Shown: positions 9,578-42,026 of the stretch, piece by piece
How positions within the stretch are numbered: the first letter of the stretch is position 1
Layout of the letters: every line of letters starts with the position of its first letter
Notes under the pieces: model-generated
Database searches by the model: none
Seen by the model: only the letters and a program-made list of their open reading frames with translations
What the model was told of the DNA's origin: nothing
Translations under genes and position numbers: made by a program
NCBI GenBank assembly: GCA_950295325.1
Contig: OX485803.1
Location: forward strand, 60,219,554-60,283,553
Direction of reading: 5' to 3'
DNA: 64,000 nt
Source of the DNA: Polytrichum commune
Taxonomy: Eukaryota > Streptophyta > Polytrichopsida > Polytrichales > Polytrichaceae

Positions 9578-12500
9578 TTACTGCTTTGATTTGCTGCGAA
9601 ATGATGACAATGAGAAGAATGAACGAGGGGCTGCAAATTGCACACAACCAAAACTCTTGTCAGCTCCATCACAATCAAAATTGAGCTTCAATGACAGTTC
9701 ACTAATCAAGGAAAATTGGACCAAAATCAACCCTTTGAACTGCCCATATGAATGGCAATGAGGGTGCAAAAAGACAAGATTCAAGATTGCCAGAGTGAAA
9801 GGCTCAACACAGGGAGTGGACAGGTCGTCAACCTTTTAAGAGGCTGCTTCCGCCCACATGCTCATCGCGAGTTTTGAAATGAGCAGGTGCTGCGGGTATG
9901 GAGCTTCTGACAAACGGTACTGCAACACCCAGAGAATGGGCCAGTTAGAACGAGATCCTATCTTCTGAATTTTGTGAAAAGATAAACAACACGCCTTTGT
10001 TGAGTTACAGAGAGGTTGAGAGAGTGTGTTCGAAGCACAGCACAGAGTAGCAAACTTACTTGAAACTAGCCGTGTTCCCACATCGCCCTCTGTCACTGAG
10101 TCTTCTGGAATTGCTGGAGGTCCAGACACTTTTCCAGGAATGCGAGAACCAGTGCTCTTCGCCCCAATATGAGTCAACTCGTCAGTTCGTCCACCATGCT
10201 CACTGACCATATCAAAGTCATCTTCAATGTCAGAGGGGCTTTCACTTGTAACTGAAGCTGCACTGCTCTTGTCCTTCTTCCGACCAAATTTAAGCAGTCT
10301 TTTCAATCCTCTGGGAGAATCCTTCACATTTGGTGGAGCTGCAGCCTTCTGTGCACTTCCCCACTTCTTCCGCAGGCCGGAAACTGTTTGGCCGTCAGGA
10401 GAAAGAGATTGATGAAGTTGAGGGGCCGGGCTTGCAAAAGGAGAACCTGAACCTAGTGCAATGGGTGCCTCACTAGGAAAACTCTCTGCCATTGATGCAA
10501 ATGGCACTTCATATGAGAGCCGAGGTGAGGCCAAAGTATCACCAGCCGGTCCTCGATGTGCCCTATATAAATCTAGGACTTCGGAACCTTTGGGGGACAA
10601 TGAACTCAAAGGTATGGAATGTATAGGGGAAGATCTGCCACGTGGTGGAGATCCTGGGCGGCTGGTGTTCTGTGATGACCCATTCTGAGGTTCTTCATTC
10701 AGAAAATGTCTCAACGTGGTTGAATGCACATTACCAGATGAGAGTTCCGCACGAGTGTCACACTCTTCTGCTTCACTAGCAGGAAGCCTGACAGTGCTCA
10801 CCCCATCTTGGCCAGCATCAGCCTCTTGCCACTCTTCCAGTCTGATGACCTCATCTTCATCTTCCAGAGGCAGAGAGGTTGACTCTGGAGGAGTGCCAGA
10901 ACTGACTGGGAAAACCCCTAATCCCCCAATATCCAATGTTTCGGATACTTGAGCAGTCGATGACTCTGGCTGAGCAATTGCCCTTTCATCCTCATCTATA
11001 GAGGATGCCAAGCCTGTAGCTGCCTTTTCAGCTCCTGCCCCAACAGTTTGAGATTCAGAGTCAGGTACCTTCTCTGATTCCTCCTCAGGTGATTTTGTAG
11101 GTTCAGGGGCGGCAGCTACTTTCGATTTGCGAACGTTGGGTCCTGCTCCTGGTCCAATTCCTCTCCCTTTGCGTAAGAAGGGTTTTGAGTCTGTTGTTGA
11201 GGCTGATGTGAGAGAAAGCCGTTTATTAGCCTTGCTTTTGGAAGTTGGCTCAGCTGGAGATACTTTTGCAACCTTGAGAGGTGACAAGATTGGACCATCC
11301 TTGATAGAGTCTGTTACCACAGCAATGCTCCTCCTTATGCCCATTCCCCGCTTCTTTTCCTCTGAAGGAGTACCTTTGGTAGCAGTGCGACTCCCATTTG
11401 ACTCCAGAGGAGCTGATGAAGCTCGCACCATACCAGGAAGTTTACTGCCTGTGCTGCGGGGCCTTTCATTATAAGTGCTGTTCCTAACTAATGCAGGCTT
11501 TGTGTTTTCTTTCCTCAGCTCTGACAAGGAAGGAACTGATCTGCTCATGGCATTTTCAGCCTCTTTGGCTGGACCTGTAGTCTGTGGCCTCATTTGGATG
11601 GTTCGGACCAGCTTTGGGGTAGACATAGGGGCTGCAGGGGAGCTCACAGTTCCTCTGAAGGCCCCATGCGACACCTTTTTCGGAGGAGACAGCCTGCGAG
11701 CTACACTAGGCTTTGATTTAGGGGTTAAAGATGGAGTGGGGATAAGAGTCGGTAAGGGGGTGGGAACAGGTGTGGAAGATTGCTTTGATGCAGCTCGTGG
11801 TGTCGTTGCAGTGGAAGGTGTTGATCGCCCTGCTGGGGGAGGACTGAGACTACTCCTGGCTGCAATTCGTTCCCGTCTTTGGTTGCTGACCTCTTCCAGT
11901 CTCTTAGATTCATCATCACCCTAGAAAAAACAATGTGAGTAAACCGGCATGCAGACAGTAATGAGTAAATAATAGACTTATAAGATATCAACTTCCATGC
12001 TTCTGTTGGTCCATAGTGATGTGGAAGACATCAAGTTGCCGCAGGGGAGCCCAGGTTCTGTTGTTCATAAAGATATAACAGGAAATTGGCTACTCAATCT
12101 TACAATGAAATCAATGCTGAAGGGAAGCAATTATAATACATCATCATGTAAAGATCATCCTCAATGAAGATAGAACAATTTCTACATGAATATGAAGGTC
12201 AGAAACAGTAGTGGCGGAAGAGTACCTTGTGCTTCTTAATCTTGACGACATCCACTTTTGAACTGCGCACTTTCTCATCGCGCACTTGGGATTCTGCATC
12301 TAAGTTCTGTTTTGCTGAACTTCCTTTGCGAGCAGCCATTTCTGCTTTCCTCCGCTCCAAAACTTCTTCCATAGATTTCAGTTTTGCATCTCTCTCTGCT
12401 TTCTTTGACTCCGACTCCTCCCGCAATTTAGCATCCCTCTTCTCACGGTACTGCTCATAGAATCTCCCTTTAGGTTCTTTAGGTGATAACAATTCAGGTC

Positions 12501-15500
12501 TTGCTGAATCGCCTGTGGCTGTGTGGTCACTGGCATTTTCAGAAGCCTCCATATCATCTTCAACTGGACTATTCCATCCTGAAGATCCGCGACTGGGTCT
12601 TTGGTCAAGTACTGATTCTTGTGCAAGATTTGAAAAGGAATCAGTATCAGTGTCCACAGAAAGGCCGCCTCTCCAACCACTGCCCAAATGATCCTCAACT
12701 GCAATATGCATATTGTTTGTGTCAAGAAATTTTGATGCAACACCCACCAAGATTTGGAACCTACAAATCAAAGCTTTCTAGAATTCTCTCCAAATCAGTT
12801 CCCTAGTAGGATACCAAAGATCAATAATGCAGTCTCCTAAAATAACTAAACCCTCACTGTAATATTCAGCCAGGGGATCGTCATGAGCACTGCTCCTTTC
12901 GTAGAAATGGCTTTCTGACAAACAGCTCGTGGTTACACAGGTCCACCTATACAGAATTTCGACCATAGTTTTATGATATTAAACACAGGAACAGCAATGA
13001 TTGACACCTATGATGTGAAACTCTCATCAAGGTTCTAAGGATTGAATATTACTGAACAGAAGCAACTAAGTGTAGGTTATATGCTCATCACACAATTCAA
13101 ATCCCTCTCATCAAGAACTCCACAAAGAGTACCTTCACCAATACTCCAGTTTTGGTCAGAGACTGGAAAACTATACTGACCTTGCTTGATTGGAGAACCA
13201 ATCTGCTCCCCAGAAGCAATCTCAGTATCTTCATCACTTCCCTCCAACTCCTGAGAAACCAGGTTAGTCCCAGCTGCTCTGAGAGGAGCATAATTGACAC
13301 TCTTCATGACTATGAGACCTGAGCGCCGCATGCTATTTCGACCAACTTGCACCCTCCGCATTGGTGAAGATGACCGTCGTCTAGGGGATGAGGCTCTTCG
13401 GACCACAGGCCGACTCTGAGGCCATTTAGCCTTGTCCTCTGTTGACAGACTATCTTGAACTTTGGGAGCTGAAGTTAACTGAGCCCCATTTGCAACAGAA
13501 GGTGCTGCATTATTATTCCCCATCTTCCCCTGTACTTCCACTGTCTGCCGCCTCTTATGCTCTTGCCAGGAATTAGCTGCAGGAGATGGTAGATTTCCAT
13601 TTGCATCCTCAGATTTATTTTGTTCTTCTGTACTAGATGATACATATCCAAGTCCATTGGCTGCACTTGCATGTGTTTGAGGCTGAGATATTACCACATG
13701 GGATACTGCATGTCCAATAAGCTCAGCTGGACCAGGTCGCCACGGTTGGTCCGACTGGCCAGCAGCAATCATCCAACTAGGAAGACTATCTCCCATCCTC
13801 TGGGTTGGACCATTCTGATTGTGTTGGCTCCCTCTCACGGATGTATTAGAACTCTCACTATCTGATAAAAGTGGACCACTCTTCGACTGAGAACCAAGAG
13901 GAATTTGATGAGCCAACAACTGAGGAGGTCCCCATGCTCGTCTTTGACGCTGACCTCGGCCAATGCCATTGCCTGCATTTTGATCATTTCCTGCTTCAGT
14001 TGTGCTATCTGCAGCATACCTGAAACCAGGAAGTTGAGAAGAGAGGGATGATGCCCACCGGCCTGTGCCATTTGGGTACGATGAGGTTTCATCTGCATAG
14101 GCCCTGCCTGCTGTCTCTTGACCTTGGGAGCCTCGAGATACTTCATCCCAACTGGCATGATTTGACCCTCCACGTCCTCGCACATACTCACCACCCATGT
14201 CCCGTGATTTGCTGGGACTTAAACTTGGAGGTTGCTCAAGAGGATTCCGCTTTCGAAGCATGTCTGTGCCAGAATATCCTCGCAATGATAAATCTTCACT
14301 ATAATAATTACTATAGGATTTTACACTAACATCGTCCCTAAGATCCTCCAATCTGAAGTCACCTGCCTCACTGTGCATATCAGACCACAGATCTGACTCA
14401 CGTGGTCTTAATTCAGGACTTGTTGGAACATTACGAAGACTTGTTGTGTCAGACAGTGGCCACTCATTCTCATCCCAAAGGCCTGATTCTTTGCTCTTCT
14501 TGAATATGGTCGTGTACATAATACATGCATCACTGTTTCCAACCAGCACAACATTTTTAATTAGTTCATCATATGTCCCAAATCTACATGAAGTTCAGAA
14601 ATAGTGTGCAGCCACAGAATTCCTCCTGATGCCTATGCTACCAGAAACACCTAATTCATTCCTGTTCAAAAAAGGTCATCTTTAATTATTCATCTTAGTG
14701 TGAGAAGACTTGAGCTAAGGATTCACACCCCAAGCGATTGGCACCAAAACAGTCAGCAAAGACCAACAGATGTTCCATCTTTTGCATGTCAAAGCCAGCT
14801 GCAGTTGCTCGTGCAAATGCCATTCCCTGTTCTTTGTGCAGCAGCATTTTTCTTGCTTCCATGGCTCGTAACAAACGCCGCCTGCCAATAGTAATCATAA
14901 CCATCCACATCCTTAATCAATCTGTATCTATAGAACTATAATTCTTCACCACATATGCTTGAGTAGCAAGAAAACGCCATCATCCTCTCCACACAGCAGA
15001 ACGAGGACAGAAAAAGAAAAGATTTCAAACGCTTGAAATGAAGTCACGAAAGAAAATAGAAGAGGATACCTGGCATTTTCGTCAGGTGTGGGGTTATCTG
15101 CCCCATCTAGGGAATTCCTTCTTGACTTTAATTGTCAACACAAGCAACAAAGCAATCATTAGGAATCAAGGGACCATGGCATGAGGGTGATCAAGGAAAA
15201 CTTTATATTACAAAATTCATCAAAGTGTGGAGATTTTCCAGTAATAAATATGGACTTGCAAAGCTTGTGGAACAAAAGTTGAGGTCGTACAGGTGTAGGT
15301 GTTGGTGCTTTGTCAGTGGTTAATGATAACAATATGTTGCTAGCTGCATTAAACCAACCAAAGCACTTAGTCTCCAGGTGAGTTCAAAACTGACCTTCAG
15401 ACATCATACATTTTACTAGTCTTCAGAGAGGAATTTTTCACTCAGTTCACATGCAAGAATTGACTCAAACCTCATCAATCCACAGAGAAAAAGTGACAAA

Positions 15501-24805: not shown

Positions 24806-25540
24806 TGGGGGAGATTGTTTGGGCGTAACCGGTTGACATCCTAGTGTTTGGAACTCCAACCGGTTACATGTTGTGATCGTTTGGTTTTCCCTTTAATAAA
24901 TTGGGGTATATGCTTCTATAGATTCCTCTAGAATTAATGATGGGTGGATTTTCCTGTGGTCTTGAACTTCAACCGGTGGTTATTTCTCAAACTCAACCGG
25001 TTCATTTGTAACTAACCGCCGGTTCTCCCTGATCATAGGACCTTTGTTGTGTTGTGTAGCGGGTGTGGTGCGAGTGGAAAGGCCACCACACACTTCACGT
25101 CATTGCACAACATTAATGCTCAAAGCCTTTCCCTCACTGACACACAAAAAGCTTGTAAAAAGCACCAGATCCGACCAAGGGGGGAGAGCCAACCGCTACT
25201 TGCAGATGAACCGGTTCAGTCGCAGGAATCGCCGGTCGGAGTTCACGACTTCGGGAAAATCACCCATCATTTTAGAGGAATTTGTGGAATATACCTCGAA
25301 TGATTTTAATAAAGCTTGCAAAAAACACCACATCCGACCACCGGGGGAGAGCCGGCCGCTAGTTGCAGGTGAACCGGTTCAGTTGCAGAAATGACTGGTC
25401 GAAGTTCACGACTTCAGGAAAATTACCTATCGTTTAGAGGAATTTATGGAATATACCTCGAATAATAAACAAGAACCAAAAGATCACAACATGTAACCGG
25501 TTGGACTTGGAAACACTAGGATCTCGACCAATTATGCCCA
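24806..25540. repeat. Inverted repeat with a tandemly duplicated 163-bp arm
   Basis: The right arm holds two tandem copies beginning at GCTTG 25151 and 25314 (period 163), each with ATCCGACCA..GGGGGAGAGCC and TTTAGAGGAATTT.TGGAATAT. Its reverse complement matches 24806-25045 (CCTAGTGTTT..AA.TCCAACCG, ATTCCTCTA). A further copy lies at 60590-60790. The recurring GAACCGGTTCA/AACCGGTT palindromes are striking. No coding frame is supported. Confidence 0.7.
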
Positions 25541-25542
25541 GA

Positions 25543-25597
<55 letters not shown>
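25543..25597. repeat. Compound (GT)n(GA)n microsatellite
   Basis: A GT run followed directly by a long GA run. Confidence 0.97.
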
Positions 25598-25599
<2 letters not shown>

Positions 25600-27227
25600 G
25601 GTTTGGATGAATGATTGGTCATGAGGCCATGACCAGTTGCTCATTCAAGTGCATGGCACTACCGACCACTCTCCTGTGTTTTCTATCCATGCAAATAATA
25701 TTTTTATCCATACCATGTGATTCTATATCCATACCATGTGATTCTACATCCATGAGTAGATTGGTCCTAAAGTCACAACCAGTTGCTCATCCAAGTGCAT
25801 GGCACCTCCAACCACTCTCTTGTGATTTTTATCCATGCAAATAATATTTGGAAACGCTAGGATCTCGACCAATTATGCAGAGAGAGAGAGAGAGAGATGG
25901 TTTGGATGAATGATTGGTTATGAAGTCATGACCAGTTGCTCATTCAAGTGCATGGCACTTCCAACCACTCTCTTGTGTTTTCTATTCATGCAAATAATAT
26001 TTCATCCGTATCATGTGATTTTTACATCCATGAGTAGACCAGTCATATGATTGATAACCAACTCCATGAGAAATAGATGGTTGGCCGCTTCTGAGGCTCG
26101 CCATTCACTCTCCTCTCAATGGTTATTTAGTCCATAATGGTTGCAATTAGAAGACAAAGGTGAATAGAGAGGCAAGATATAGCTATACATCATAAACATC
26201 TGTAAAGTGTAGCTATGAGGTATAACTTGTTAGGGACGTTTGTGTGATGAAAAGTGGTGGAGAAGACCACATCCTTAAACTCTCCCCGGTTTCCTGTGAT
26301 ACTTCCGTGAGTGGACCGAGTATTAGTGACCCGGCACCCAATCACGTGCCTTTGTGTTTCAAAGTGTGCATGTGTTAACCTTTTAGAGTTAAAAGCCTAC
26401 AAGGACCTTTGAAAGGGTAACGCATTTTCTAAGATGCATCGCACAATAGCACTATCAAGAAATTCTGGAGGACTACTAAAAAAGAGAAGTTATGAAGCAC
26501 CGTTAAAGAAATGCAACCATACGGTTAAATGAAACAAAATAAAGATGTCTTCCTATTTTATTAAGAAGTTAATTAGTGTGAGAATTTAGCATAATCACGA
26601 AGCCCATTGTTTTGTATGAGACGCTCGAGGTGATTGATTCAAATCACATAATTGTGGATCGGTGGAAAGTTATGAGCATTGTGTGATCTTCAAGTGATCA
26701 ATGTGTTGACATGTCTCTTGAGATGTGAGCACTTCATGAGAAATACATGGCAAATTTGCATGCAATTTGTAGGGTCAAGTGTTTGGAGATGAATGGCGAA
26801 TTCAATAACTACATTTGGAGGGGGGATGGCTAGTTGTCCTTGTTGGCGTTAATGGATTAAGGTACTTGGGTATGATGTGATTGCCTTTCTTAATTGAACG
26901 CATGTATTTGAGTGGTATATGACAATGTTCGTTATTAAGAATAAATGTCAAATAGACACGTGTTACGATGAGAGTGGACTAATTATATATGCTCATGATA
27001 TAGACACCGTTCTACAATCAAATAGTGAACACGTTGGTGTAGTCATTTAAGAATTTGGAAAATCTTCATTTCATATTTTTTGTACAACTTTTTCATATCT
27101 ACTCCAGTTCTTGAAAGGACAATCTTCATGATTCACAATTACTAACAAACGAACGAGACAATTCTCGAGCCAATTCAACGGCCAACGATGTATGTGGAGT
27201 TGGAAGTGCCCACGACAAGGTACGTGG
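25598..27227. repeat. Intergenic, beginning with a three-copy local repeat
   Basis: The phrase CCAGTTGCTCATYCAAGTGC, followed by CCATGCAAATAATATTT, occurs near 25631, 25780 and 25931, giving three diverged tandem copies over 25604-26045, broken by GA microsatellites. Beyond 26045 I see no repeat with definable ends and no gene. Confidence 0.65.
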
Positions 27228-32139: not shown

Positions 32140-32143
32140 ACCA
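32140..32143. repeat. Target site duplication ACCA, left copy
   Basis: ACCA immediately precedes the TG that opens the left LTR, and ACCA follows the closing CA of the right LTR at 42023-42026. Four bases can match by chance; the coincidence with TG/CA ends makes it credible. Confidence 0.55.
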
Positions 32144-32654
32144 TGTCGTGTAAACTAAGATCGTTAAACACAACAGATCGAGTGTCGGCGTCAACATCAA
32201 TTAGCAAAATAAAATAGCAAACATGAGGGTTTCTCTCTCCAAGCTTAAGAAACTAAAATGTCTCCTTACAAAGCTTAAGAAACTCTAAAATTCACACACA
32301 AGAGTCAAGCTATCTCTCACTCCACGAAGGGAGAATCCAAGAGTGCAAGTGGTGGAGAAAGAATGCAAAGGCTTTACTCATAATCTACTACACCATAGCC
32401 ATGAGAAAGCAACAACAAGCTCTCTCTCTCTCAAAACACACTCACAAGACTTGATTTGACAACAATGGCAAGTCAAGAGGCCTTCCTCTCCATACAACCC
32501 CAATCCTATGTGGAGTTCATCCATGGAGGGGATGAACAACTAACTAGGACTCCCAATGGAGTCCGTTACTCATCCTAATACACATGGACTCCTAGTGGAG
32601 TCCATTTACTCCTAAATTGACGTGACTTAGCCCCCGATATCACCTCACGTAACA
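32144..32654 (-). repeat. 3' LTR, 511 bp, with an extra 79-bp end
   Basis: The 431-bp core (32224-32654) is shared with the 5' LTR. A further 79 bp (32144-32222) extends it to a TG...CA-bounded 511 bp next to the ACCA flank. In element orientation it starts TGTTACGTGAGG and ends ACACGACA. The extra 79 bp is absent from the 5' LTR but repeated just inside this LTR. Confidence 0.85.
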
Positions 32655-32656
32655 GC

Positions 32657-32735
32657 TGTCGTGTAAACTAAGATCGTTAAACACAACAGATCGAGTGTCG
32701 GCGTCAACATCAATTAGCAAAATAAAATAGCAAAC
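32657..32735 (-). repeat. Internal copy of the 79-bp LTR-end block
   Basis: It is identical by eye to 32144-32222 (TGTCGTGTAAACTAAGATCG...TAGCAAAC) and is separated from the LTR by two bases (GC). A purine stretch (GAAGAGG in element sense, near 32750) lies just beyond it and could be the polypurine tract. Confidence 0.9.
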
Positions 32736-33088
32736 TAAAATGCTAAACAACCACCTCTTCAAGTGCCCCCACTAGCAGATAAGGAGCCCCTCCAATCGGC
32801 TAGGAACAAACACACTCATCGGTAGAGTTGTTGAACATGATGAAGTTGTTGCTACATCTATACATATTCAATTGGGTAGTGGTAATCTAGGGAATTAAAC
32901 TCATGATTGAGAAAGTAATCCAAGAACTATAGGCTGGGTGCAATTTGAGCCCCATCCTTAATCGCCTTCAACAATTTATGTTGAATTCTTGGATAACTCT
33001 TTCAATGTGATTTTCAATCCCATAAAATTTCCAACCAACTAAATAACAACTTCACCACTAAAACATGTGGTAAACATCCACAAAATCC

Positions 33089-36000
33089 TCAATCATGACC
33101 ATTAACGGCCACGGAATGAGAGGCTTTCCGACAACGAGGACAAACCCAATTGCCAGAAGGAAGAGTCAAAAGGGGAGGTGTCAAACATGCCATGTGCCAT
33201 CCACGTTGACATTGGTCGCACAATAACATTGTTGCAGCTCCTGTCTTCTCTCCACAAACATAACAAGGCAGACCCTGTGGTACAACCGCCAACTCGGGAT
33301 GCACAGAGCCGTCGATGGGAAGGTGACATGGAGCACAATTCTTTGAATGCTTACGACATTCCCGTCCATCCTTGCCTTCAAGCAATAATATACCACTTGG
33401 CAAGACATCTTTTACCCGCAAAATCGTGCGCCCAACCTTGACATCCAATGTCGTAGGCGCCTCCCGTTGCAAGTAAACATAATCCCCCTTGGAAAATCTA
33501 CGAACCTGAGGTCGATAAGCTCCACTGCGGATCCGAGCATACCGTAATGTATCACGATGTTGAGCAATATTTAAGTTCTCCATAGCCATAGGCATGGCCT
33601 TTTGGAAGAACGCTGCTCGGTCATGAAGACATTGAGCCCAAACATCTGGATCATCCAAGTTTACCACGGGAGCCAATTTCTCTCGCACCGAGCTAGGTAA
33701 AATTGGTTCCCGTCCATACAAGAGTTGGTAAGGACTATAGGATGCCAAAGATGCTTGCCTGCTGAAACGATAACCCATTGCTATCCATGGTAACATCAAG
33801 TCCCAATCGCGATGGTTGCCATGAAGCAATCCATACTTCCGCAAACCGCGCTTAACTGTCTGAACAACTCGTTCAGCTAAGCCATCTGCCTCAGGGTGAT
33901 CTCTAGAAGTTGTCCGATGATCAATCAAAGCCTTGGTACACAAAGCCTCGAAAGATCCAAGGAATTCTCTCCCTTGATCCGTCAACACCTCTGCAGGTGC
34001 TCCAAACCGTGCCAAAACTCGATCAAGAAATGCCACAGCCGCCAATTCTGAGGAATTTTGGGGAAGAGCCACGAGTTCAATCCACTTACTAAAATGCTCC
34101 ACCATCACAAGCACATACTTGGAACCACGTGGAGTGATAGTAAGCGGTCCGGAAAAATCCAAAGACCAACGATATCCCAAGCCCATAATAGGTAAAGGCT
34201 GAAGTTGAGGTGACAAAGTATTAAAACTTGACCTGACCCGGTCACATACTTCACACCGAGAAACATAAGTGGCAACCTGTTGATACATACCAGTCCACCA
34301 ATATCGGTTGCGCAACATAGAGTGCGTCCTTCGCACTCCAAAATGTCCAAGCTCCTCGTGCACTTGCCGTACCAAAGAAGCTCTTTGATCTGGCCTTGGA
34401 ACGATGCGCCTCGTTCCGTTCGGCCACACACGAAATAACAAGTTGTTTGCCCAACGAAACCTTGTTATCCGGTGACTAACTCTATCTCGCTCCATAGCAG
34501 ATAGTTCAAGAGGAAATATCCCTTGTTGAAGTTTGTACAAGACCGCCTGGTCTTCCCACACATCACTAACAACGAGAGATTTATCAACCTCCTCATCCTG
34601 TTCTTCTACAAGGATCTCAGCAGCCAATCCCGACATCATTGTGAGATATGTGGCAGCATGCCAACCCGGCACTGCCTCACGATCACAATCTCCATGCCAC
34701 CTGGCTCCAGTTAAATCCTCATCTGAAGGACTTGGATTGCGAAACAATCCGTCTGCATCCAAATTGGCAATTCCTGCTCGGTGAACAACTTCAAAATCAT
34801 ATTCCTGAAGTAACAATGCCCACCTAGCAAGTTTCCCGGTGAGCTTATCTGATTCCATAAGCCATTTTAAAGGCTGATGATCAGTCACCAAAGTAAACTT
34901 TTGCCCATACAAATAAGGTCGAAAATGTGCAATGGCCCAAACAGCCGCCAAGGCCTCGCCTTCATAAGAAGAATAATTAGATTCAGCACTATTATTGCTT
35001 CTAGATGCATAAGCCACCACATATTCCTTTCCCTCTTCATATTTCTGTGTCAATACCGCTCCCAATCCCACTGCACTCCAATCCGTGTGCAATTGAAAAG
35101 CTCTAGACACATCCGGGCGTCGAAGCACTGGCGCTGAACCGAGCCTCTGCTTCAATGTATCAAATGCCTGTTGTTGTTCCCGACTCCAAATCCATGGTTG
35201 GTCTTTCCCCGTGAGAATGGTAAGGGGTTTGGCAATCAAACTAAAGTTTTTGACAAACCTCCTATAATAATTTGCCAATCCTAGAAATGCACGAAACCGT
35301 GGTACATCACTAGGTGCGGGAATTTTGTGCAAAGCATCCACCTTCGCCTGTTGCACACCAAGACCGCCAGGAACAATCATGTGGCCTAAATAGGGCAATT
35401 GATCATGGAAAAACTTACATTTTCCATGATGTAAACGGAGTCCCCACCGTTGAAGTCGTTCAAATACCGCTTGCAAATGTCTCACATGATCATGTGGACT
35501 ATTACTAAAGATGATAACATCATCAATGTAACATCTAGCAAACGGCAAACCAGCCAATAATTGGTCCATCACCCGCTGAAATTCAGCTGGTACATTCTTG
35601 AGACCAAATGGCAGAAATTTCCAATGATAAAGTTGATCCTTGCCATCTTTATCAATTCCCCAAAATGCGGTCTTCACCCGATCACCCAACAACAAAGGTA
35701 ATTGGTGATAACCAGACCTCAAATCCAAAGTGCTGAAGATTCTAGAAAATCCTAGTGCATCAAACAACTCCTCCGGCATCGGCATTGGATATCGATCCGA
35801 CTTGGTCTTGCGGTTGACTGGACGATAATCACCACACATCCGTTTTTCCGTCCAGTTGCCAAATATATCCTTCTTTGACGGCATAACCGTGGCACAAGCA
35901 TACTCTCCTTTGGAGAGTTCAATCAATTCCGCTGCCAATAACTCTTGACATCGAGTTTGAACACCCAACCTTTCAGAGGTACTAAGTCTGTATGGCCGTC

Positions 36001-36232
36001 TGAAAATAGGGTGGTCGTCCTCGAGTTGAATACGAACAGGTTTACCTTTATATCCTTCAAGATCATGAAGACTAAAGGCAAAACAATTACGGTAAGAGCG
36101 AATAAATGCCCGTACCTTTCGTGCTTCGGCACCAGTAAGCTTTGGCCCCACTTCAATTGGCCAATCGTCAAACTCCGTAGTTTCCTTCTTCATAGAAGGA
36201 TTGCCAATTGGTGCCAGCACAGCCTGTGATTG
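33089..36232 (-). CDS. Pol: reverse transcriptase, RNase H, integrase and C-terminal PHD finger
   Basis: The reading frame continues in phase from the DNMT segment after the UAG at 36235-36233. The GTG at 36220 is taken as residue 1 for numbering only; the first real ATG is codon 10. RT carries YIDD at 231-234 and FLPFGLKN at 202-209. RNase H shows TDWS (D380), the E420/E422 region and TDHQ (D447). Integrase has an HHCC zinc site (H621, H626, C656, C659) and the acidic triad D688, D748, E783. Residues 986-1030 form a C4HC3 PHD finger (C986, C989, C1001, C1004, H1009, C1012, C1027, C1030), with a C-terminal stop after 1,043 residues. PHD fingers read histone H3 tails, so here it may steer integration, as chromodomains do in chromoviruses; that role is inference. 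All catalytic residues that can be checked are present. Confidence 0.95.
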   Translation of the reverse strand, partial: QSQAVLAPIGNPSMKKETTEFDDWPIEVGPKLTGAEARKVRAFIRSYRNCFAFSLHDLEGYKGKPVRIQLEDDHPIFRRPYRLSTSERLGVQTRCQELLAAELIELSKGEYACATVMPSKKDIFGNWTEKRMCGDYRPVNRKTKSDRYPMPMPEELFDALGFSRIFSTLDLRSGYHQLPLLLGDRVKTAFWGIDKDGKDQLYHWKFLPFGLKNVPAEFQRVMDQLLAGLPFARCYIDDVIIFSNSPHDHVRHLQAVFERLQRWGLRLHHGKCKFFHDQLPYLGHMIVPGGLGVQQAKVDALHKIPAPSDVPRFRAFLGLANYYRRFVKNFSLIAKPLTILTGKDQPWIWSREQQQAFDTLKQRLGSAPVLRRPDVSRAFQLHTDWSAVGLGAVLTQKYEEGKEYVVAYASRSNNSAESNYSSYEGEALAAVWAIAHFRPYLYGQKFTLVTDHQPLKWLMESDKLTGKLARWALLLQEYDFEVVHRAGIANLDADGLFRNPSPSDEDLTGARWHGDCDREAVPGWHAATYLTMMSGLAAEILVEEQDEEVDKSLVVSDVWEDQAVLYKLQQGIFPLELSAMERDRVSHRITRFRWANNLLFRVWPNGTRRIVPRPDQRASLVRQVHEELGHFGVRRTHSMLRNRYWWTGMYQQVATYVSRCEVCDRVRSSFNTLSPQLQPLPIMGLGYRWSLDFSGPLTITPRGSKYVLVMVEHFSKWIELVALPQNSSELAAVAFLDRVLARFGAPAEVLTDQGREFLGSFEALCTKALIDHRTTSRDHPEADGLAERVVQTVKRGLRKYGLLHGNHRDWDLMLPWIAMGYRFSRQASLASYSPYQLLYGREPILPSSVREKLAPVVNLDDPDVWAQCLHDRAAFFQKAMPMAMENLNIAQHRDTLRYARIRSGAYRPQVRRFSKGDYVYLQREAPTTLDVKVGRTILRVKDVLPSGILLLEGKDGRECRKHSKNCAPCHLPIDGSVHPELAVVPQGLPCYVCGEKTGAATMLLCDQCQRGWHMACLTPPLLTLPSGNWVCPRCRKASHSVAVNGHD

Positions 36233-36235
36233 CTA
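36227..36235 (-). promoter_or_regulatory. Putative stop-codon readthrough signal UAG-CAA-UCA
   Basis: The stop between the DNMT and RT segments is followed by CAA UCA, which fits the UAG-CAR-YYA context known from tobamoviruses to allow ribosomal readthrough. The frame is open on both sides. Function is inferred from the match and from the shared frame. Confidence 0.65.
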
Positions 36236-37693
36236 GTCCGTGGAGAGGGCAACACCTTTGCCCCCATCATCTGCACTTGAATCCAAATGCGTATCCTCTC
36301 CACTACAATCAGTTTGTGTAGCTAAATAGCTATCCACATATGAAGTATCACCAAGAAGTAGAAGTGGAAACATTTTATGGGCCTCCAACTTCCCAAACTC
36401 TTGGGCCAAAGCCGAAAAACCACGTTGGACTCGAAGCTCTTCCGCAACATAAAGTTTCAAAGGAAATAATCCCTCGGTGTCATTGACCTCAATGTGATCC
36501 TTGGATTGCGGCTCCATTGCCCCCTGACCATTGTTCTCTGCTCTCAGAGTAAGCAATCGGTCATTCATACGTTGTTGAGCAGCAAGACAAATTCCAATTA
36601 TCCACACAATGCTATTAAGATCCATAGCTTGCCCCAATAGGAAACGTCTCTGACCTTCCTGAAGCTTGTGAGCAGCCGTGGTACCTGTAAGAAAACCCAT
36701 GGCGCGTTCCCGCTCATCTGCCGTAGGCTCCTCATAAGTTTGGGATTTTGAATCCCAAACCATGCCAGGTCCACGAGATCGAAATGCAAAAGACTGTGGA
36801 TATGTCACAAAAGTAGGTAGTGCACCTCTCGGAATTCCCACCTTGTTAATTAATGCAAATGGCAAGGTGTCATCCTTGGTAACTGCCAAGGAAACACGAT
36901 GATCATTTAAAATGTCATCCACCTTGCGATCCATAAGGCGGGGAATGTGGGCAATCGCCGCTGACAGCACCCGAGGTGATACCAAGTTGGTCCAAAACCA
37001 ACGAGGCCGATGAGCAAAGGATCCCAAAGATGCAGCATCCAGAAATGTTGGAGTACCCAAAATTTGGTTAATGTACTCACCATCCTTCACCACTTTGTGT
37101 CGGGTATCACCCAATAATGGTACATTTTCGAAAATGTACCCTGGCGGAGTTGATTGGTGGGTAAACCACCATTGCGTCAATCGCATCAAATCCGCAAACA
37201 AACTAGACCTAGGATCATCCAATCCCTGGCCAGTTCCTGCCCGCGAATGGCCTTGACAAGGCCATCCTGCAATAATCAAATCCACGTGGCCCAACCTTCT
37301 CAAATCCTCATCACTAATCATAGTGACATCTTGAGGAAGTTGACCACAACATCCATGAATGGCAGAGGCTGACAATTGTGCGGGGTATCTCAACAACAAT
37401 TGTTGGATGTGGTGTCGGACGGCTCTGTTGGCTGCATACCCATTGTCCACATGAATATATCGCCAAACTGTAATTCCAGCTTCCAACACTGCCGCCAAAC
37501 CTGTGCCAATGCCTCCAAAGATCTCCACAAGGACAATACCTTCAGGTGATGGTTGCCAACGAATGAGTTGAGCAAAAGAAAATGAGGATGAAGTTGGGGA
37601 TGCCTCTCCAAGCTCCAAATCCGCTACAATGTGTCGACAATGGTCGGATAACTCCTTAGGAGTTCGCCATGGTGGAGGTGGATCCTTGAAATG
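36233..37693 (-). CDS. C5-cytosine DNA methyltransferase, DNMT3-like, embedded in the retrotransposon
   Basis: It transfers methyl from S-adenosylmethionine to cytosine C5 in DNA. Numbered from the TTG at 37618, motifs come in canonical order: I, EIFGGIGTG (32-40); IV, GWPCQGHS with catalytic C121; VI, FENV (163-166); VIII, AHRPRWFWTNL (202-212); IX/X, RAMGF...RRFLLGQAMD (305-333). The unpermuted order and the AHRxRxFWxNL block resemble DNMT3 more than plant DRM, whose motifs are rearranged; PCQ rather than PCN is unlike animal DNMT3. About 110 residues of unknown role follow motif X. There is no ATG between the gag UGA (37696-37694) and residue 100, so independent initiation would lose motif I. 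The frame is the same as gag, so readthrough is the likely route. No frameshift or internal stop is seen. It ends at TAG followed by CAA TCA. Confidence 0.95.
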   Translation of the reverse strand, partial: HFKDPPPPWRTPKELSDHCRHIVADLELGEASPTSSSFSFAQLIRWQPSPEGIVLVEIFGGIGTGLAAVLEAGITVWRYIHVDNGYAANRAVRHHIQQLLLRYPAQLSASAIHGCCGQLPQDVTMISDEDLRRLGHVDLIIAGWPCQGHSRAGTGQGLDDPRSSLFADLMRLTQWWFTHQSTPPGYIFENVPLLGDTRHKVVKDGEYINQILGTPTFLDAASLGSFAHRPRWFWTNLVSPRVLSAAIAHIPRLMDRKVDDILNDHRVSLAVTKDDTLPFALINKVGIPRGALPTFVTYPQSFAFRSRGPGMVWDSKSQTYEEPTADERERAMGFLTGTTAAHKLQEGQRRFLLGQAMDLNSIVWIIGICLAAQQRMNDRLLTLRAENNGQGAMEPQSKDHIEVNDTEGLFPLKLYVAEELRVQRGFSALAQEFGKLEAHKMFPLLLLGDTSYVDSYLATQTDCSGEDTHLDSSADDGGKGVALSTD

Positions 37694-40330
37694 TCAAGCA
37701 TGAATTTGAAAAGATGGTAAAAATTGTTGTTCTGCCGCATTACAAGTGTAGGCCATTGTTTCCTCCAATAAATCTGGAGCACAAGGCAAATCTGCAACTA
37801 AACCGCTGCAACCAAACATTGCCTCCGCAACCATAGTCATAGCAGTGGCTGCAAATGTGACAGGAATAAATACCTTCCTGCCATCTCCAGTGGACCATCC
37901 CGGTCTAATCCATGCCTCTTCCGTCCAATTATCCAAACCAAAGCGAAGTGGGTAAAGAGCTTGCTGACCAACAAGTATATCATAGTTGGTAGCATTAGTA
38001 ACAACACACTTCATTGACAAATGAGTGTAAGTAGGCCCTGCCCCCACATGAAAAATCAAACGTAGAGGTGCCTTGGTGTAACCTGTTGCACGTTTAGTGC
38101 CCCCTACTGAAGTCACAATAGTAAATGGACAAGGATCCAAGCTTGCTGGCGTCAATCCAAGACTGTCAGCAAGTCCTTTGCCAATCATAACCGGTTGAGC
38201 ACCGGAATCCATCATAACTCTCAGTGGTGTAGCACGGATAGTGGGCATATCCGTGCGTGAAACGACAAACAAAGATTTGTCGTTCATCAGCCGTACAACT
38301 CCAGGTTGCAAATTATGCCATTCGCGAGCAGGCCTTGCAGAAATGTCTGCAAGATATGCCGCTCCCGACGCATAATTCAAAAATGACGTATCCACTGCTG
38401 AAATTGATGCTGGAGGAATATCAGTTTGCTTACCAAAAGCAATGATCGCCGCATCCGCAAGACTCGCTCGCAAATTGGCTAAGTCCTCCACCTCGTCAGC
38501 CACAGGTACGTCAACCACAGCTTGGGATACTTGAAGGGATGGCAAAGCCGCCTTACCTTCTAACATTCTCCCAGCTAAATGAAAAACTGCAGCAGGCTTG
38601 AAATCCGAAGCCATAAATTCCGAACCCGAGAAAATTGGCATATGGAGAATTTTGTATGCCAATGCCTGCGTAACATCCTTCGAGATGGAATCCCCATCTC
38701 TCAAAGGTACAGGGTTTTTAGCCCCAACAACAGTGGTGTCTACCAATCCAAATGAAAGAGGTAAACGTGCTTGACCAATTTGATCAGCTGGTCCGGCATG
38801 GCGAGGATGTAGCACCTCGTGGCTACCCCCACTCGTGGAAGCCACCGCATCTGCCAATGTTTGTGAGCGAGTAGAAGCCGCCGCCACCACCTCTCCAGCT
38901 GCTCCAAACATATACATGTCCGAACCCGAGGTGCCACCACCCACATGCGGCTCAGAAATTTGAGCAAAAGATGCAGAAGATTTGAGCTTTTGCTCAAGCT
39001 CTGCCACCTTAGCCTCAAGACTCTGCTCCCTTGGAGACTTTCCAGTGACATAACTGGCAGGCCGCATCTCAGGATGAAGTAGGAAACAATGATCCACATC
39101 GTGATTAGTGCCACCACAATGGTTACATTTCAATTGTCTCTTCTTAGAATTGTCCCCTGCCCTTACTGGTTCCATCTTTTGTTTTAATTTTCCCAAAGGC
39201 TGAGTTTTCTTCTTCTTAGGACAATTGGGATCATTCTTCGAATGACCAGCTTCTCCACAACCCCAACAATGCAAAATCTTTTGCTCCTTGACGGGTTGAG
39301 TCTCAGCTAAACTACTAGTAGCTGTGACAATTCTTCTTGGTTTCGGACTCTCTGTCATCCAAGATACCATATCCGTGGCATCATGTTGGCAAAGAGCCCG
39401 ATCACATCTCTCAACCACGGCAAACGCTTGTGCAAGCATAGCTCGGCCCTCGTAGTCGAGGATAATCCGAGGTGATGCCAACTCAAGTAGCCGCTTGTCA
39501 ATTTTAGACAAAAAGATTTTAACAAGCTGACTCTCAGCAAAAACACCTCCCGACTCCACAGCAAATCGCGCGAGTCGCGTATACATGGTCCGTGGAGTAT
39601 CATCCTTCTCTCGGCGGAAATCCTGGATGCGCTGCATCTGGTCTCGCCGAAACCCACCATACTCCACTTCCAAATGTGCGACAAATTCAGTAAGGGGATT
39701 AAACGGAGGTGGTGGACCAACAGCCGTCAATGCTGCCTGTGTAGCACGTGCCACCCGTGAAAGGGTTGCCGTGCTACTGCTAGCCACCATTGGCCCAAGT
39801 GCCAGTTCCGTGTCCTTAGACTCCGCCGGCGATTCCTCCTCCTTTAAGGTGGGTGGAGCTAAGGTAGCAATCGCCCCATCTTTAAGGGCTAAAATAAGCT
39901 CAACCCGGGCCTCCCAATACTGCTCCACCTCCCGAAGTTGTCGCTGATGACCCTCTGTCCAGCGTTCGTAAGTTTGGAGTGCCTCATACTCCAAATGCTG
40001 AGGCAGAAGTTCAAAGGCATACCAATCATTGAAATTGGAAGACCTTTGGCGTTTCTCCTTAATCCAGGTACGAAACCGGAGTTTCCAATCGGGCAAGGAA
40101 ATGCCCCCAGCTCGACCTGAAAACCGATCACGCACTGAATTGTGGCGATCGTCCTCCATGTCGTCGAACGTGCCGACACTCCAAATCCGAAGCCTACTAG
40201 TAGTGTCCAACGCCGAAATAGGCTCAAAAGCCTCGTTGGTATCTACCTCTGGCTCAAGATTTGTGGTGCCCACGTCCTCCAAGTAATCTGGTGATGGAGA
40301 TCGATAATATCGACTCCTAGTTTGCACCAT
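37694..40330 (-). CDS. Gag polyprotein with zinc knuckles and retropepsin-like protease
   Basis: It starts at a true ATG (40330) and runs 878 residues to UGA. The region of about residues 210-330 resembles the retrotransposon gag capsid fold (FVAHLEVEYGGF..., then TMYTRLARFAVE...). Two zinc knuckles follow: C355, C358, H363, C370 (longer last spacing) and the canonical CX2CX4HX4C at C402, C405, H410, C415. A retropepsin active site, MMDSGAQ, is at D708-S709-G710, followed by a flap-like YDILVGQQ. The protease is therefore fused to gag and separated from RT by the DNMT. The next codons after UGA (CAU UUC AAG) stay open in frame into the DNMT; the C right after the stop favours leakiness but is not a classic motif. 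Confidence 0.93.
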   Translation of the reverse strand: MVQTRSRYYRSPSPDYLEDVGTTNLEPEVDTNEAFEPISALDTTSRLRIWSVGTFDDMEDDRHNSVRDRFSGRAGGISLPDWKLRFRTWIKEKRQRSSNFNDWYAFELLPQHLEYEALQTYERWTEGHQRQLREVEQYWEARVELILALKDGAIATLAPPTLKEEESPAESKDTELALGPMVASSSTATLSRVARATQAALTAVGPPPPFNPLTEFVAHLEVEYGGFRRDQMQRIQDFRREKDDTPRTMYTRLARFAVESGGVFAESQLVKIFLSKIDKRLLELASPRIILDYEGRAMLAQAFAVVERCDRALCQHDATDMVSWMTESPKPRRIVTATSSLAETQPVKEQKILHCWGCGEAGHSKNDPNCPKKKKTQPLGKLKQKMEPVRAGDNSKKRQLKCNHCGGTNHDVDHCFLLHPEMRPASYVTGKSPREQSLEAKVAELEQKLKSSASFAQISEPHVGGGTSGSDMYMFGAAGEVVAAASTRSQTLADAVASTSGGSHEVLHPRHAGPADQIGQARLPLSFGLVDTTVVGAKNPVPLRDGDSISKDVTQALAYKILHMPIFSGSEFMASDFKPAAVFHLAGRMLEGKAALPSLQVSQAVVDVPVADEVEDLANLRASLADAAIIAFGKQTDIPPASISAVDTSFLNYASGAAYLADISARPAREWHNLQPGVVRLMNDKSLFVVSRTDMPTIRATPLRVMMDSGAQPVMIGKGLADSLGLTPASLDPCPFTIVTSVGGTKRATGYTKAPLRLIFHVGAGPTYTHLSMKCVVTNATNYDILVGQQALYPLRFGLDNWTEEAWIRPGWSTGDGRKVFIPVTFAATAMTMVAEAMFGCSGLVADLPCAPDLLEETMAYTCNAAEQQFLPSFQIHA

Positions 40331-41591
40331 AAAATAATCCCTTGAGTACCTGCAACTATCTACAAGGTAATGGAAACCTGCACCTGTTGTGGACTATCTA
40401 AATGGCAATACCTTGCCAAATGCCAAATGCTTATGCCCCCAGAATTCCAAAATTGTGCAAAGGTTTGAGATTGGTAATTAAAATTAAAAATCAGCGTTGA
40501 AAATGTTCATTTCCAAGGTGATTATGAACTCCAATCAACAAACTAAGTGCACCAATGGACTCCTAGGAAGATTTCACTCCAATCGGAGTTAATTTGCTCC
40601 CAAAAACAAAAATCAGCGTTGAAATTAGCAATTTCAGCAATGATTTTGACTTCCAATCAAAAATCCAATCACACCATTGGATTCCTTGGCAAATTTCACA
40701 CAAAATAGGCTCAAATTTACTCCGTTCGGAGTTAATTTGCTCCCAAAAACAAAAATCAGCGTTGAAATTAACAATTTCAGCAATGATTTTGAATCCCAAT
40801 CAACAATCCAATTACACCATTGGATTCCTTGGCAAATTTCACACAAGATAGGCTCAAATTTCACTCCAATCGGAGCTAGTATGCCCCCAAATTTGAACCT
40901 CAAAGTTTGTGAGAGTCAAATGCCAAGTTTGAGAGGTATAAGTAAAAATAAGTAAAAATAAAAATAATTGTTTATATTTTTTAAATAAAAAATAAAAACA
41001 AAAACAAAAACAAAAACAAAACCAAAACCAAAACCAAAAATAAAAAATAAATTAAATTAAATTAAATTAAATTAAAAAAGGGAAGGGGAAGGGGGCTAAC
41101 CTGGGCTTGGCTGGCGCCGCCCGCCCCGGCCCGGCTGACGCCACCCGCCCGTGGGCCCGGCCTGCGCCGCCTGCCCGGCTTGCAGAACCGGAGCTCCAGG
41201 AGCTCCAGAAGCTTTAGGAGGGTCCGGTGAGCTCCGGATCCGTCTGGAGCTCAACAAAATTTAAAAACAAATCGGATTTGAACTTTAAAAATTAAAACTA
41301 AATCGGATTTGATTAAAAAAATTAAACTTTGCTTCCACAATTTGCAAGCAAGAAAGATGTGACTTGAGATTCCATTTGGTCTCAAGATTCAACCATCAAC
41401 AATTCAAGAAAACACAAAGAGACACCAAAAGAGAAATGTGAAGATTTTTCTCAAAATCTTCTTGAGGGTTGCAAGGAATTGCAAACTAAGCTTTCATACA
41501 CTTGTATCACTCATTTGCTCCCACTACTGGGCCCTTCTAGCTCAGAAATACAACCAAAAATGAAAAATTTGAATACAATTGTTGTCAAGTA
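40331..41591 (-). other. Retrotransposon 5' leader with tandem repeats and a GC-rich segment
   Basis: A unit containing AAAATCAGCGTTGAAA, then AATCCAATYACACCATTGGATT, repeats with period about 143 bp (markers at 40491, 40613 and 40756; CGGAG markers at 40584, 40727 and 40871). The segment 41100-41240 is very GC-rich (GCCGCCCGCCCCGGCC...) against an AT-rich background. No coding frame of note is present. A long structured leader is typical for such elements. No tRNA-complementary primer site is evident beside 41592. Confidence 0.7.
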
Positions 41592-42022
41592 TGAGGGTTT
41601 CTCTCTCCAAGCTTAAGAAACTAAAATGTCTCCTTACAAAGCTTAAGAAACTCTAAAATTCACACACAAGAGTCAAGCTATCTCTCACTCCACGAAGGGA
41701 GAATCCAAGAATGCAAGTGGTGGAGAAAGAATGCAAAGGCTTTGCTCATAATCTACTACACCATAGCCATGAGAAAGCAACAACAAGCTCTCTCTCTCTC
41801 AAAACACACTCACAAGACTTGACTTGACAACAATGGCAAGTCAAGAGGCCTTCCTCTCCATACAACCCCAATCCTATGTGGAGTTCATCCATGGAGGGGA
41901 TGAACAACTAACTAGGACTCCCAATGGAGTCCGTTACTCATCCTAACACACATGGACTCCTAGTGGAGTCCATTTACTCCTAAATTGACGTGACTTAGCC
42001 CCCGATATCACCTCACGTGACA
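41592..42022 (-). repeat. 5' LTR, 431 bp, lacking the 79-bp end
   Basis: It matches 32224-32654 over its full length with five differences, all transitions. The outer end is TGTCACGTGAGG in element sense, next to the ACCA flank at 42023-42026. The inner (U5) end stops at CCCTCAT and continues into unrelated sequence, so the last 79 bp seen in the 3' LTR are missing. Confidence 0.93.
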
Positions 42023-42026
42023 ACCA

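Follow-up and report, generated by a model that had tools for sequence, protein, structure and literature searches.

A window of 64,000 nucleotides of Polytrichum commune DNA (contig OX485803.1) contains a retrotransposon that encodes its own DNA cytosine methyltransferase (DNMT). Positions 32144-42022 of this window, on the minus strand, are a single complete Ty3/Gypsy-type element. Its coding domains run from gag-protease through a Dnmt3-type DNMT to reverse transcriptase (RT), RNase H, integrase and a PHD finger. We consider it probable that this is a crippled copy from a multi-copy, split-repeat Ty3/Gypsy family in which DNMT and RT have long been inherited together, the DNMT would be made at the level of Gag and would methylate cDNA, and the PHD finger would steer insertion. 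The first-pass annotation had proposed a Ty3/Gypsy element that carries a DNMT within these boundaries. The domain order and the best PDB sequence match of pol (Ty3 Gag-Pol, 5.1e-100) agree with the proposal. The boundaries are confirmed by terminal repeat A1 and its second copy A2, which are 98.8% identical over 432 bp, and by a 4-bp target-site duplication, TGGT, identified by comparison of the flanks (left copy 42023-42026, right copy 32140-32143). Elsewhere in the window, a multi-exon host gene lies on the minus strand at 9836-14549; it has no Pfam match and may encode a COP1-interacting protein 7-like product. The nearest named relatives of a host gene were seed-plant sequences of low identity. 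The tandem arrays at 25148-26002 have repeat units of about 163 bp and about 153 bp.

All features of the element are on the minus strand. Read in the coding direction, it begins with A1 (41591-42022), which starts TGTCACG, and a leader (40331-41590) that includes 143-bp tandem repeats at 40571-40891. The gag-protease frame (37694-40330, 878 aa), identified from its open reading frame, Pfam and comparison with sister copies, is followed by the DNMT frame (36236-37693, 486 codons) and by pol (33089-36232). Beyond pol lie repeat B1 (32657-32763, 107 bp), the dinucleotide GC, A2 (32223-32654) and terminal repeat B2 (32144-32222, 79 bp), which ends ACGACA. The repeat order is thus A-coding-B-A-B, as in DIRS elements, and had been missed in the first-pass annotation, as had the PHD finger and the reading frame common to gag-protease, DNMT and pol. 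Simple LTRs at both ends were rejected as a description, as the split repeats were found in the window and in the other copies. The B-GC-A-B arrangement was present in 20 of 20 copies fetched from the same genome, 19 of which also had the left A. We speculate that the constant B-GC-A junction may serve as a template joining the element ends. The B2 of the window copy does not have the first 28 bp found in the B2 of other copies.

Pfam identified the C5 methylase, RT, RNase H, the zinc finger and core of the integrase (H2C2 and rve) and the PHD finger; the aspartyl protease (Asp_protease_2) scored 22 bits, just below the cut-off of 24.3. The element therefore has the protease-RT-RNase H-integrase order and the Ty3-type RT of Ty3/Gypsy elements without their simple LTRs. 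The Pfam scan of the element gave no tyrosine recombinase, with the rve integrase present instead, and no chromodomain at E values up to 0.001. The PHD finger occupies the C-terminus of pol (33131-33265; PF00628, 40.7 bits, cut-off 24). Its relatives in a PDB sequence search include the histone readers PHF21A, CHD4, UHRF1 and ATXR5, which favour unmodified H3K4. Chromoviruses share the RT-RNase H-integrase order followed by a C-terminal histone-reader-like domain, which is a chromodomain in their case, whereas the element in the window has a PHD finger in the corresponding place.

The presence of a complete methyltransferase domain between gag-protease and RT, claimed earlier from motifs, was upheld by Pfam (PF00145, E 3.4e-12), by sequence and by predicted fold. 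The nearest PDB sequences are DNMT3A, DNMT3B and DNMT3C, followed by DRM and then by bacterial enzymes. An AlphaFold2 model of the DNMT frame had a mean pLDDT of 80.3 and a pTM of 0.75. In a fold search with this model, all 50 PDB matches listed were DNMT3 structures, with target-normalised TM scores up to 0.83. Motifs that we take to be I, IV (with Cys121 of the 461-aa ORF), VI, VIII, IX and X are all present in unrearranged order. The catalytic domain of DNMT3A/3B, the best match by both sequence and fold, has the same motif order. The two differ in that structural alignment gives only ~21% identity, motif IV reads PCQ in the window and PCN in DNMT3A/3B, and the window DNMT has a C-terminal tail of ~100 residues, modeled with low confidence. 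No ADD or PWWP domain was found in the window DNMT frame. With its catalytic motifs in the original order and DNMT3 as its closest relative, the domain is classed by sequence and model as a Dnmt3-type enzyme of putative activity.

A single reading frame covers gag-protease, DNMT and pol, with in-frame stops only at residue 879, at residue 1366 and at the end of 2414. The earlier statement that the frame is undamaged does not hold. The first stop, a TGA at 37694-37696, splits gag-protease from the DNMT and is private to the window copy: all 20 fetched sister copies encode an amino acid at this point, Arg in 19 and Gln in 1. Among 18 protein relatives aligned over this position, 11 have Arg, 5 another residue and 2 a gap; predicted proteins cannot hold a stop and are a biased sample here; the fair comparison is with the 20 copies read as DNA. 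The window copy is crippled by one nonsense codon, and the view that it is intact was rejected. The second in-frame stop, a TAG at 36233-36235 between DNMT and pol, is conserved.

We searched the genome (407.8 Mb in 64 contigs, 7 of them large and together 406.1 Mb) with the DNMT, which gave 599 first-look candidates, 92 of which were scored. The 92 matches are 88-100% identical, and 42 of them, including the window, have no stop in the matched 461 residues, a count that covers stops within the match and excludes frameshifts outside it. The 20 copies closest by DNMT match, a choice that favours intact DNMTs, were fetched whole. All 20 repeat the layout of the window. The frame was free of stops and net indels in 12 of 20 copies for the DNMT, in 7 of 20 for gag-protease and in 7 of 20 for pol; in 2 of 20, all three were open. 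Nine DNMT stops occur in 7 of these copies. None is at a common codon; every copy thus probably carried an open DNMT at the time of its insertion. The single stop common to two fetched copies is in pol. Two points raised in the first-pass annotation are thereby addressed: copies with an intact DNMT could be counted among the scored matches, and the sister DNMTs are not always broken.

A 4-bp duplication flanks 7 of the 8 sister copies with both ends in reach and is absent from one; the count is 8 of 9 with the window, and L015, which has no left A, was left out. In 19 copies, the identity between A1 and A2 ranges from 94.7 to 100%, with 9 copies at 100%, some of these over a partial A. Because many copies have identical A repeats, the family is young; it is also widespread, yet tolerated. 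With 72 DNMT homologues, 555 pol homologues and 92 scored copies in the same genome, the arrangement is not due to chance. A one-off capture, or an assembly artefact confined to the window, is close to impossible and was rejected: besides the 92 matches and the shared layout of the fetched copies, relatives exist in other plants and algae.

Selection on the coding frames was estimated among the copies by dividing mean dN by mean dS, which gave 0.45 for gag-protease, 0.58 for the DNMT and 0.31 for pol. The DNMT is constrained, but the least of the three. A more distant comparison was provided by L001 (CADCWO010000201.1), a contig of 9285 bp deposited as part of a Synechococcales genome, which is surely plant or algal contamination of a bacterial genome. 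L001 and the window are 87% identical in pol and 62% in the DNMT. Silent sites between them are saturated (pS 0.74 for the DNMT and 0.71 to 0.78 over long blocks). The pN values are 0.24 for the DNMT, 0.27 for gag-protease and 0.08 for pol, and dN/dS is far below 1. A circular form of L001, drawn from its 127-bp overlapping ends, was not adopted, as identical repeats produce the same overlap when the assembly loops through them. Another relative, P0002, is named Candidatus Obscuribacterales and likewise looks like plant DNA contaminating a bacterial genome.

The TAG between DNMT and pol is followed directly by the hexamer CAATCA (36227-36235 with the stop). In plant viruses, UAG-CARYYA serves as the type I leaky-stop signal (PMC2754532, PMC2194720), and UAG-CAA-UYA is described as giving 32% and 11% readthrough in plants in the TMV and BNYVV contexts, respectively (PMC2754532). 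The TAG and a CARYYA hexamer were found in 40 of 40 other genomic copies examined. Of the 20 closest copies, 19 read TAGCAATCA and 1 reads TAGCAACCA at this position, and all 20 copies taken from the lower part of the match list read TAGCAATCA. In the 64-kb window, CARYYA follows 2 of 1632 TAGs, and the DNMT-pol TAG is one of the two. In L001, gag-protease and DNMT form a single open frame that ends in TAG CAATCAC and continues in frame into pol; the ten bases from the TAG onward are identical to those of the window. In both, pol is open and in phase downstream of the UAG. An open frame of 1386 codons is listed for 24 of the 92 scored genomic matches, a length consistent with a frame that starts upstream of gag and runs to the DNMT-pol UAG. 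Among the 72 DNMT protein matches, 11 stop at the corresponding place with a similar ending, and two more do so loosely.

Given the TAG signal in L001 and the genomic copies, and the matching ends of the protein relatives, we regard the stop as a conserved feature of the clade. A UAG followed by CARYYA and by an open, in-phase frame makes it, by sequence, a candidate type I readthrough site. From its identity with the plant-virus signal it would follow that the DNMT is made at the level of Gag, with readthrough yielding pol as a minor product. The RNA 3' of the UAG may form a stem (36120-36221, outer arm 11 nt from the stop). Both the window and L001 fold here with z of about -3.3, a value reached by 0 of 200 shuffles, and their folds have 14 to 20 pairs in common, depending on the length used, with one two-sided change. 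Control tiles elsewhere in the element fold as low in 9 of 119 and 13 of 208 cases. The stem is therefore only suggestive, and we rejected it as strong proof of readthrough.

Protein searches gave DNMT relatives in Calypogeia, Marchantia, Riccia and Sphagnum and further relatives in Closterium and green algae, with none in scans of viral contigs. An element with a DNMT had been thought untypical of land plants; these relatives make the case less isolated. Among the 120 of 555 pol matches that were listed and examined, the DNMT lies before the RT in the same ORF (front position) in 13 and between RNase H and integrase (middle position) in 34. No DNMT in the same ORF was found in 73. In the window clade, the intervening stop may be the only cause of a DNMT missing from the pol ORF. 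A PHD finger is present in 85 of the 120. One middle-position protein, P0186 from Chromochloris, has a G-patch domain (residues 737-780) between its DNMT and its integrase.

An RT tree of 104 rows, built by a quick method, places all 31 middle-position rows together with 4 DNMT-less rows on one side of a branch with a support of 99. On the opposite side are the 14 front-position rows, including the window. The named members of the middle-position side are Tetrabaena and Haematococcus, the latter with no detected DNMT; those of the front-position side are Klebsormidium, Closterium, Marchantia and Calypogeia. Support for the Tetrabaena DNMTs is weak, with no Pfam match, 84 bits and two short matches to a model built here. 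On the streptophyte side, the tree also has an 18-row clade, including two Klebsormidium proteins, with no DNMT in the pol ORF. A DNMT tree of 78 rows, in which only pieces of one outgroup are present, joins 31 middle rows, 2 front rows and a single lone row in one group with a support of 85. The DNMT may have been captured once and then moved, or been captured twice. Distances in the RT and in the DNMT are correlated, with r of 0.69 over 39 proteins, 0.66 within 28 and 0.87 within 11, and 0 of 5000 shuffles were as high in each case. The DNMT therefore travels with the element, and the question of whether DNMT and RT trace the same lineage is answered in the affirmative.

Elements of this kind have been known since 2018. 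The precedents in charophytes and dinoflagellates cited in the first-pass annotation are found in de Mendoza et al. (PMC5890265). Our literature search, which excluded most subscription journals and bioRxiv, gave no other report of DNMT-bearing retrotransposons (PMC5890265 is cited by PMC12344493). KnitGypsy-Dnmt3 of Klebsormidium nitens is described in PMC5890265 as a Gypsy element with a Dnmt3, and shares with the window the Gypsy domains and a Dnmt3-type DNMT without motif rearrangement. The legend of Fig. 4 gives its repeat order as that of DIRS, which A-coding-B-A-B fits. A K. nitens protein with the DNMT before the RT (P0114) groups on the window side of our RT tree. The DNMT of KnitGypsy-Dnmt3 is described within the Pol ORF, whereas that of the window is on the Gag-protease side of the UAG, with a stop between DNMT and pol in every copy examined. 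The hosts differ as well, the window coming from another plant, with a genome of 408 Mb. By sequence, the window element thus appears to be of the KnitGypsy-Dnmt3 type in kind and not in expression layout. SymbioDIRS-Dnmt3 of dinoflagellates also combines a Dnmt3-type DNMT with A-coding-B-A-B repeats, and its two structures, as described, have the DNMT at two different places in the polyprotein (PMC5890265). It is a DIRS element with a tyrosine recombinase; the window element has instead a DDE-type integrase and 4-bp target duplications, neither of which accords with the DIRS order, where a tyrosine recombinase is present and target-site duplications are absent. The term PHD finger does not occur in the text of PMC5890265. 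In the literature searched, the leaky stop, the PHD finger, the clade-specific positions of the DNMT and the wide range in green plants are new, as are the multi-copy plant genome and the relatives in liverworts, Sphagnum, Closterium and green algae.

In the mechanism we prefer, most ribosomes would stop at the UAG and release Gag-protease-DNMT, and a minority would read through into pol. The DNMT would then be a major, Gag-linked component of the particle. Judged from the signal, its synthesis is probably coupled to that of the abundant particle proteins and not to that of the copying enzymes. This dosage is not universal, since distant members have DNMT and pol in an uninterrupted frame (the 13 front-position ORFs). 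A quite unlikely reading is that the UAG is an ordinary terminator and that pol is expressed by re-initiation, splicing or a separate RNA. The window pol frame does have an AUG at residue 14, but the pol of L001 has none before residue 117, inside the RT, which argues against a separate start. Moreover, pol stays in the frame of the DNMT in both elements, and the hexamer is a known leaky context kept in all 40 other copies.

Methylation of the element's own cDNA would be the likeliest role of the enzyme; such a role was proposed for DIRS elements by de Mendoza et al. (PMC5890265). The enzyme may act within the particle or shortly after entry into the nucleus, and a methylated new copy would arrive marked like resident DNA. 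The integrase PHD finger may in turn steer insertion by histone mark. The same authors raised the option that the DNMT limits its own family, methylating and silencing copies and so lowering copy number and host harm. At least 92 copies carry the DNMT in a young, widespread and tolerated family, and dosage at the level of Gag would scale the enzyme with expression. We nevertheless judge self-restraint improbable, because the most active lineages should lose an enzyme that did nothing but limit them, yet the 20 closest copies have no DNMT stop in common. It is similarly unlikely that the DNMT is a nucleic-acid-binding or structural module of Gag with secondary or modified catalysis. The domain does sit in the Gag-protease polyprotein, and in 22 aligned retrotransposon DNMTs (including P0107, P0140 and P0166) EC replaces the PC of motif IV with the Cys kept, which is odd for a working methyltransferase; 17 of these are middle-position, 5 are front-position and 0 of 35 stand-alone rows has it. 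Against this, the window clade retains PC, ENV and the remaining motifs, and conservation across the aligned relatives is 71 of 73 for the catalytic Cys and 71 of 76 for the Glu of motif VI. In the 2018 work, expression of the KnitGypsy-Dnmt3 DNMT in yeast gave no methylation, a result that its authors call inconclusive (PMC5890265).

Why a transposon would carry an enzyme that usually silences transposons has been a puzzle since 2018. A young multi-copy family with a conserved DNMT is now known in a plant, and its candidate leaky stop predicts that DNMT protein exceeds pol and is packaged into the particle. The occurrence of DNMT-bearing Gypsy elements in liverworts, Sphagnum, charophytes and green algae points to an old green-plant lineage and not to a single Klebsormidium event. 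We put forward only tentatively the broader picture of an ancient green-plant Gypsy lineage in which the silencing enzyme of the host has become a particle component, the UAG sets a high ratio of DNMT to pol, each particle methylates its cDNA before integration, the PHD finger picks the chromatin by histone state and the DNMT has been retained while shifting between the front position of the streptophyte-side clade and the middle position of the green-algal clade. If this is true, a writer of DNA methylation and a reader of histones would travel together in one element.
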